Virus record (IMG/VR): IMGVR_UViG_3300042691_009013
Coordinates: 1 to 36,721 of that record
Strand: one strand, 5' to 3'
Length of the DNA stretch: 36,721 bases
DNA from: a virus
In this document: positions 2,043 through 3,661 of the stretch, in pieces
Numbering within the stretch: position 1 is the first letter of the stretch
Layout of the letters: each line of letters begins with the position of its first letter
The notes under the pieces: model-generated
Told to the model about the DNA's origin: nothing
The model's database searches: none
The model's input: only the letters and a program-made list of their open reading frames with translations
Position numbers and translations under genes: made by a program

Positions 2043-2051
2043 TTTATTTGT

Positions 2052-2080
2052 TTTGCTTATTCAATTATTTTATATATTTG
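2052..2080 (+). promoter_or_regulatory. Promoter of the structured RNA locus
   Basis: TATATTTG at 2073-2080 is a perfect -7 box. The best -33 TTTG is at 2052-2055 (17-base spacer), with a second at 2047-2050 (22-base spacer). Transcription should start near 2085, three bases before the first helix of the RNA. Confidence 0.65.
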
Positions 2081-2085
2081 CAAAA

Positions 2086-2491
2086 GGTAGTGAGGGCTAT
2101 CTAATTAAGCTGGATATTCAATTTCGATATATCGCCCTTAAATAGACCCCTCACTATTTAGGGGCTTTTTTATTTCCCCTAACAGGCTGATGAACCGACC
2201 CGTTCAGCCGTGAGCATAGGCGGGAAACCGCAAACAAAAGCAGTCGTTAAAGAACTTATAAACCAAGTTATGCGTAGGTGCGCTGCAAACTCGAGGGGGG
2301 CAACACCGACCAAAGTGCAAGGGGCTAAATGCTCAAGTATAACGAGGGGCTTTGTTGAAAATAGTTAAAGCGAATGAAAAGAGGCGACGAGCGTTTAACA
2401 GCCTGATATATCGAAAACAGGAACACGGGCAACAAAGTTATTAAGTACCGCTAAAGCGGTTTAACTACCTTGCACGGGAAGAACCCCCTCG
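2086..2491 (+). ncRNA. Large structured RNA upstream of the capsid gene
   Basis: About 400 bases with no credible open frame but many complementary arms in nested order. The 3' domain has CGAGGGGG (2292-2299) with CCCCCTCG (2484-2491), GTGCAAGG (2315-2322) with CCTTGCAC (2468-2475), CTTTGTTG (2350-2357) with CAACAAAG (2430-2437), GTTAAA (2364-2369) with TTTAAC (2394-2399), CCTG (2402-2405) with CAGG (2418-2421), and ACCGC (2447-2451) with GCGGT (2456-2460). The middle has GGCT/GAAC (2185-2188, 2192-2195) with GTTCAGCC (2202-2209), GCATA (2214-2218) with TATGC (2269-2273), and the GNRA hairpin GCGG-GAAA-CCGC (2220-2231). The 5' domain is TAGTGAGGG (2088-2096) with CCCTCACTA (2148-2156). A promoter lies just upstream, and the capsid promoter begins seven bases after the outermost 3' arm. 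It matches no RNA class I recognise. Confidence 0.8.
2088..2180 (+). promoter_or_regulatory. Possible terminator/antiterminator switch in the RNA 5' domain
   Basis: Three mutually exclusive pairings use the same bases. TAGTGAGGG (2088-2096) can pair with CCCTCACTA (2148-2156), and the stem continues inward through CTAT/ATAG and TTAAG/CTTAA. Alternatively CCCCT (2147-2151) can pair with AGGGG (2160-2164), making a terminator hairpin before the T run at 2166-2171. If the first stem forms, AGGGG is free to pair with CCCCT (2176-2180) and place the T run in a loop. This is the layout of an attenuator, although the ligand or trigger is unknown. Confidence 0.5.
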
Positions 2492-2497
2492 CTATGC

Positions 2498-2528
2498 TTT
2501 GAAATTAAAAAACACTTTTGTAAATTTG
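2498..2528 (+). promoter_or_regulatory. Major capsid promoter
   Basis: TTTG at 2498-2501, a 19-base spacer and TAAATTTG at 2521-2528. The mRNA would begin near 2533 with an 80-base leader containing a hairpin, AGGCG with CGCCT (about 2554-2574), followed by the AT-rich AAACATTAAAACCTTTAAA segment just before the ATG. Confidence 0.8.
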
Positions 2529-2614: not shown

Positions 2615-3661
2615 ATGTCAATTTCTCGCATTTTATCAGAATGCCCGAACGTGCAAATGTCGCTATCGGAGCTTTTCATCGAGGTAGGTCAGCGCGAACA
2701 GCTACCTTTTCTCGAATTTCTTAATTCACCTGAAAACGTAAAATTAATTAAACAGGAAGTAGCGCCCGGTCGCGGTAAGCTAAAGACCGTTGAAGCTCGT
2801 TGGATACAGCGCCTACCCGAAACTGAAGTAGTAGAGGGCGGTGATATTCTAACGTGTACCGCGTCGAATACTTACGGCGATAGCACTACAACCTACACAT
2901 TAGAAACTACCGACACCTACCAAGCCGAGCAATTAATTGTTGCTTCGGATATTGCGCGTCATTGCCAAGAAAACAGCCGTTACGTACTAGAAAGCGTAAT
3001 GCGTTTAATGGACGTGTTAGACCGCAAGGTAGCAAGCGCCGCAGCTACGCAAGCCGCTACCGCTATCGGTGCATGGGGTACAGAGGTAAGCGGTTACTAC
3101 ACCGTTTCGGGCGATTGCTTACAGATTGCAACGCGTCAAACAGGCGGTCAAGCGCTTAACGAGTTTGCTTTAGCAGATATTTTACAAGCTACCCGCATGG
3201 CTAATTACCCAGCCGCGCCCGTTGCTTTCGGCGGTGCTGAAATGCAGCGTTACGCAAACGCCGTTCAGGCTGGATGCTGCACGCAATACGGTATCGATTT
3301 GTTATCTATTTCGCAGCAAAACGGTTTTGGGTTTGCTTACGACGCTCGTTTGGCTTCGGCGTTAGGCTCACAGCTTAAAAACCTAGTAACGACCGCAGGC
3401 GCTATGCAATGGCTATCGTTTAACATGGCAGAATGGAACGCAGGCGTTACGCCCGTAGCTGGCAGCAATTACACTAAAACTATTGCTTTCACCCCAGCGG
3501 GCTTACCCGTAGACCTAACCATGAAAGACGATTGCGGTTCGCTTTCAATCGTAATTACTCACACGGGCAAATTAGTTACATTGCCTACCGATATTTACGA
3601 AGCAAGCGACAAATACGCAGGCGTTAATTACGTTAATTGCGTTAGTATCGTAAACCCGTAA
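2615..3661 (+). CDS. Major capsid protein
   Basis: A 348-residue protein that would form the capsid shell. It is called from gene order (portal, Mu F-like, scaffold, then this gene), suitable length, and its transcription as a single gene with a strong promoter (2498-2528) and a terminator (3679-3714), as expected for the most abundant virion protein. The N-terminus (MSISRILSECPNVQMSLSEL) precedes a region with an acidic, loop-like segment and a middle part rich in Ala, Thr and Gln. No Ig-like or decoration domain is evident. I chose ATG at 2615, directly after the A-rich leader. A GTG at 2582 in the same frame would add 11 residues but lies inside the leader element. Confidence 0.8.
   Translation: MSISRILSECPNVQMSLSELFIEVGQREQLPFLEFLNSPENVKLIKQEVAPGRGKLKTVEARWIQRLPETEVVEGGDILTCTASNTYGDSTTTYTLETTDTYQAEQLIVASDIARHCQENSRYVLESVMRLMDVLDRKVASAAATQAATAIGAWGTEVSGYYTVSGDCLQIATRQTGGQALNEFALADILQATRMANYPAAPVAFGGAEMQRYANAVQAGCCTQYGIDLLSISQQNGFGFAYDARLASALGSQLKNLVTTAGAMQWLSFNMAEWNAGVTPVAGSNYTKTIAFTPAGLPVDLTMKDDCGSLSIVITHTGKLVTLPTDIYEASDKYAGVNYVNCVSIVNP

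Follow-up and report, generated by a model that had tools for sequence, protein, structure and literature searches.

A structured non-coding RNA of about 415 nt ahead of a phage capsid gene, one of three exchangeable types at its site, with a predicted two-state 5' module

What is encoded in the gene-free interval ahead of the capsid gene of a phage whose 36.7-kb virus record (36,721 nucleotides, analysed whole and called here the window) carries TAnnTTTG promoters of the Bacteroidota type and codes for a portal, a large terminase, a DnaB helicase, and a tape-measure protein? An earlier note had proposed a large structured non-coding RNA at 2086–2491, and the proposal is backed by folding stability, covariation, and the absence of a reading frame. 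As judged from its sequence, the locus is a structured non-coding RNA of ca. 415 nt (type A hereafter), encoded ahead of the capsid gene and making no protein. It comprises two modules, a terminator/kissing module (2086–2175) and a body (2176–2500), and the features of the region are the following.

2051–2080, plus strand: candidate promoter of the RNA, of the Bacteroidota type, with TTTTGC and the −7 box TATATTTG at 2073–2080 (sequence)
2086–2101, plus strand: hairpin H1, GGTAG-TGAGGG-CTATC, with loop L1 at 2091–2096 (alignment, pair counts, folds)
2113–2133, plus strand: middle hairpin H2 (RNAalifold, pair counts)
2134–2175, plus strand: terminator hairpin H3 (GCCCTTAAATAG / CTATTTAGGGGC) with a U tract (alignment, folds)
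2158–2182, plus strand: competing hairpin TTAGGGG...CCCCTAA, formed when H3 is not (minimum-energy folds)
2185–2209, plus strand: body hairpin GGCTGA...TCAGCC, invariant in 12 sequences
2212–2499, plus strand: closed multi-helix body with side hairpins (RNAalifold, pair counts)
2220–2231, plus strand: GNRA hairpin, three stem pairs of which flip in L069 with the tetraloop kept
2521–2528, plus strand: −7 box TAAATTTG of a separate predicted capsid promoter, not part of the RNA (sequence)
2615–3661, plus strand: capsid gene, named in the earlier note and without a family match in this analysis (neighbour)

Within the closing helix of the body (2212–2219 with 2492–2499) follow, in this order, 2292–2299 with 2484–2491, 2315–2322 with 2468–2475, and the helix of 2350–2357 with 2430–2437; these three nested 8-bp arms, listed in the earlier note, are exact, and the GNRA hairpin GCGGGAAACCGC likewise stands where it had been placed. 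The interval 2086–2491 contains 11 Watson–Crick stems of 8 bp, compared with a mean of 1.5 in shuffled sequence, a number equalled by none of 500 dinucleotide shuffles, while nesting three deep arose in one of 500, in keeping with the view that chance would hardly give it. The region 2086–2495 (410 nt) folds more stably than its shuffled versions (z = −2.7), and z reaches −5.0 for 2086–2505 on the basis of only 40 shuffles. The values range from −1.6 to −3.8 in eleven type A homologues (−1.6 to −5.0 in all twelve type A sequences) and from −2.6 to +2.0 in eleven control windows along the genome; such scores alone would not decide on an RNA structure, and it is the covariation that is decisive. 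As to the extent of the element, the structured region is real, but its closing helix runs past 2491 to about 2499, and the element therefore spans about 2086 to 2500; similarly, the capsid promoter thought to begin right after the closing arm is indeed separate and downstream, but with its −7 box only at 2521–2528.

Type A was found in eleven other IMG/VR contigs, the same ones being retrieved by three independent patterns, and its place in all 12 sequences is ahead of the capsid gene, on the same strand. In their alignment (A1, with the pseudoknot written in for the pair counts) the 103 pairs are formed in 98.2% of cells, as against 34–45% once partners are slid. Both sides have changed in 17 pairs of the kept fold, compared with a mean of 5.0 in shuffles (0 of 500 as high) and 1–3 with partners slid, counts that share ancestry among homologues ca. 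75–93% identical to the window and whose phylogenetic depth is limited by their belonging to one clade. Helix 16, for instance, shows a C–G/G–C swap in six of the twelve. The homologues also differ by indels of one and two bases, and stops occur in every frame, so no protein is encoded, no frame is conserved, and the protein-coding explanation is ruled out. Two other candidates were discarded: a 12-bp complement (2122–2133 with 2405–2416), not kept in several homologues and left unused, and a hammerhead-like CUGAUGA near 2187, which sits in the stem of the invariant hairpin and whose partner GAAA is not conserved.

The first ca. 90 nt are predicted to adopt two structures. The loop of H3 (L3, CCCTCA, 2148–2153) is complementary to L1, the complement extending in the window over 8 nt (AGTGAGGG/CCCTCACT) and in other type A members over five to six Watson–Crick pairs, up to seven with G–U. 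The arms of H1 and H3 are also mutually complementary, and the module can therefore form either three hairpins or one long duplex, with predicted energies of −19 to −27 kcal/mol (summed) and about −27 to −36 kcal/mol, respectively; both states are predicted, as mutually exclusive folds, in the window and its relatives. The duplex state of type A takes up the 5' arm of the terminator; AGGGG, thereby released, is then able to pair with the CCCCU just downstream, which gives the competing hairpin. Since the kissing three-hairpin form and the duplex both use L1–L3, which can pair within one molecule according to fold prediction, covariation is compatible with either state and does not pick out the selected one or an intermolecular contact.

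The site is occupied by two further RNAs of the same layout. In L002, the nearest relative of the window by the capsid gene (protein 99% identical, DNA 93%), both flanks match and 2056–2497 is replaced by a minus-strand segment comprising a TAnnTTTG promoter, H1, H2, H3 with U7, and a structured body of ca. 300 nt. This is type C, found also in L010, L011, L014, L019, L055, L057, L098, and L104, while type B is found in L004–L006, L008, L017, L060, and L061; L018 starts inside another module of the same kind. Types B and C lie on the strand opposite to type A, pointing away from the capsid gene, with their own predicted promoters, and some compensatory changes accompany the folds of their alignments (A2 and A3). 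L1 and L3 are complementary over 6–7 nt in every B and C member, in eight distinct sequence versions, and among the 40,320 possible re-pairings of these the total complementarity is reached only by the true one. Outside the 5' module, no clear sequence homology was found between the A, B, and C bodies, with E-values taken from a tiny database; the motifs GGCTAAATGC and CAAGTATAAC, which some type C sequences have in common with the window, are no more than a hint. The different bodies of L055 (type C) and of L060/L061 (type B) follow 5' modules of 102 nt that are identical, hence module and body recombine separately. An ORF of 30–43 aa in body B is probably not a gene, since one of its codon changes coincides with compensatory pair changes (columns 213–214 with 262–263).

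The genes following the RNA differ between the types. Type B is followed by a gene for a GIY-YIG or Mom-like protein, some type C RNAs have a gene behind them, and behind type A there is only the capsid gene, which has a promoter of its own; no clear terminator is seen after the type A body. The GIY-YIG nuclease gene, with a Lys-rich N-terminus, lies on the minus strand after the RNA in L008 (5041–5418), L017 (5031–5426), and L060 (100–474); in L061 (1361–1924, minus strand) it is replaced just past the same N-terminal stretch by a Mom-like DNA-modification gene, and in L004 (minus strand) its frame, intact in L008, is broken at a run of A, through a sequencing error or in reality. Short basic minus-strand ORFs of 39 and 38 aa with a shared terminal KHW.S..LDK follow the type C RNA in L002 and L055, and were not seen after those of L010 and L014.

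Several observations concern the surroundings of the type A element. The candidate RNA promoter, whose presence ahead of the element the earlier note had claimed, is kept in ten aligned sequences. A −7-like box, TAACTTTG, on the minus strand inside the body (2433–2440) could start an antisense transcript. The leader of the capsid mRNA (2529–2614) itself looks structured, with an GATGTAGT...ACTACAT complement in the same place in L022, L030, and L072, and such a leader is present also in phages without the RNA. A cassette at 215–561 of the window consists of a promoter and a 68-aa ORF; relatives of the ORF or of its leader occupy the RNA hot spot in L012, L017, L032, L010, and L013, hence there is traffic of small cargo genes between these sites.

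When a tree of 76 rows is built from the capsid gene, the carriers all group in a single clade of 27 (SH-aLRT support 100); 12 members have type A, seven B, seven C, and one, L025, is without the RNA, which is also absent from all 49 rows outside the clade. At least nine type switches are needed within the clade under a nearly constant capsid. A search of 28 whole records with the A, B, and C bodies gave a single copy of a single type in nine and nothing in the rest. Phages outside the clade mostly have at this site a bare junction of ca. 190 bp, comprising the operon terminator and the capsid promoter, with other cargo genes in some cases. The search beyond the clade, by exact DNA patterns and BLAST, gave no relative in isolate phages and no type A relative in plasmids, all loci being metagenomic; matches of the 5'-module pattern in L105, L107, and L109 are due to chance, as they lie in other phages and have no matching body.

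The element is best explained, with a probability of about 0.55, as an independently transcribed, trans-acting structured phage RNA behind a termination switch, one of three interchangeable at the site between the operon terminator and the capsid promoter. We infer its transcription, the control of termination, and the action in trans. In the first state the transcript would form H1, H2, and the U-tract terminator hairpin H3, with L1 complementary to L3; in the second, a single long duplex in which L1 is paired with L3 would rearrange the terminator. The 5' module would thus probably set the share of transcripts stopping near 2175 as a short RNA and the share continuing into the body, the RNA acting in trans and not as a capsid leader.

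Alternatively, the terminator may do no more than end a short RNA, which leaves the body without an explanation. Another view, in which a terminated small RNA of ca. 90 nt and a body made by rare read-through or in another transcript are two separate things, agrees with the identical 5' modules ahead of different bodies in L055 and L060/L061, but we hold it improbable: in all three types the body follows the U tract with no recognisable promoter between, and a conserved CCC farther downstream is a possible pairing partner for the GGGG after the U tract. Also unlikely, if slightly less so, is a self-assembling ornate RNA of the ROOL or GOLLD kind, copies of which would touch through L1 and L3. 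The element is phage-borne, large, and highly structured, and its covarying loops recall those of ROOL, which form quaternary kissing contacts (PMC12286853); nevertheless, L1 and L3 can also pair intramolecularly, and the element has no Rfam match to either family and 415 nt as against more than 600.

A function in head assembly, packaging, or capsid expression had been considered in the earlier note and is disfavoured, given near-identical capsids beside unrelated bodies, some on the opposite strand and pointing away, and a site usually bare outside the clade. For a long attenuated 5' leader controlling capsid expression in cis speak the position of type A directly upstream on the capsid strand, the terminator-like switch, and the lack of a clear terminator behind the body. 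It is nevertheless quite unlikely in view of the reversed orientation of B and C, the capsid's own promoter, kept even by bare-site relatives, and the exchange of types under a near-constant capsid. These points also weigh against an essential packaging RNA, one resembling that of phi29, copies of which would be joined by L1–L3 on the portal; complementary covarying loops, proximity to the capsid gene, and near-universality in one clade fit this idea, which is still very unlikely, as bodies without clear homology accompany nearly the same capsid and the RNA is absent from L025 and from sister clades with related capsids. Least probable is a DNA-level element, a replication origin or a packaging site with arms only resembling RNA. 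The locus is intergenic and rich in complementary arms, and RNA-primed origins such as that of ColE1 use structured RNAs; on the other hand, G–U pairs and the conservation of the GNRA loop are typical of RNA, relatives lack the element, and there is no clear skew change at the site.

Interchangeable RNAs at one spot thus point to an RNA-based function, not to capsid machinery, and the near-universality of the RNA in one clade argues against junk. A role in phage–phage or phage–host conflict is tentatively preferred, at less than even odds, on the ground that self-complementarity persists through the diversification of types and loops, a pattern that appears to resemble a specificity determinant under frequency-dependent selection. 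More speculatively, and with a low probability, the RNA might serve as an identity locus with the loop as a specificity code, by which a phage would recognise its own RNA among the RNAs of co-infecting relatives (superinfection discrimination) or evade an RNA-sensing host defence. Close relatives differing in RNA type, and a clade member without any, provide a natural experiment in which function is testable by swaps and deletions.

How does the RNA compare with known ones? That it is not a tRNA, tmRNA, RNase P RNA, GOLLD, or ROOL, as the earlier note maintained, agrees with the Rfam 15 search (these families and HEARO included), in which nothing in the whole window reached a gathering threshold and only weak sub-threshold matches fell at 1900–2700; nor was a tRNA or tmRNA found. 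Types A and C match no Rfam family. The type B body resembles the full 120-nt Betaproteobacteria-1 model (RF02932), with 38.3 bits (E 8e-6) in L061 and 26 bits in L008 against a gathering score of 49.4 bits; judged by sequence and model score, this is a divergent resemblance below threshold and not membership. The hosts differ, and the type B domain lies within a longer RNA behind a kissing/terminator module. True members exceed the threshold in four of 300 genomes of one bacterial order, with varied neighbours; three members or near matches in one genome, G257 (L119, L125, L126), share no neighbour gene. HOLDH and other weak matches in L008 were set aside because L061 did not reproduce them, and viral and bacterial contigs scanned with a Betaproteobacteria-1 pattern yielded nothing but coding or unrelated stretches.

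GOLLD and ROOL, large phage and prophage non-coding RNAs that to our knowledge have no known function, are likewise phage-encoded, large, and highly structured, with covarying loop–loop contacts, but they measure 600–800 nt and lie near tRNAs, whereas the present RNA, of a new and shorter family, has 415 nt, adjoins a capsid gene, and differs by lacking a covariance-model match, by its three exchangeable types, and by its 5' terminator module. The phi29 pRNA also has two complementary loops that covary, as found here; unlike it, the present bodies are interchangeable and unrelated, absent from relatives with related capsids, and without an Rfam match. Attenuators (of the plasmid pT181 type, riboswitches) differ in that a regulated gene follows them, in place of which type A and most type C have a structured RNA, and in that no ligand, leader peptide, or antisense RNA is known here. 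What they share with it is two mutually exclusive structures around a U-tract terminator, conserved here as predicted folds, with an L1–L3 covariation that fits either state, and such a two-state module with covarying loops would be a specific mechanism testable in vitro.
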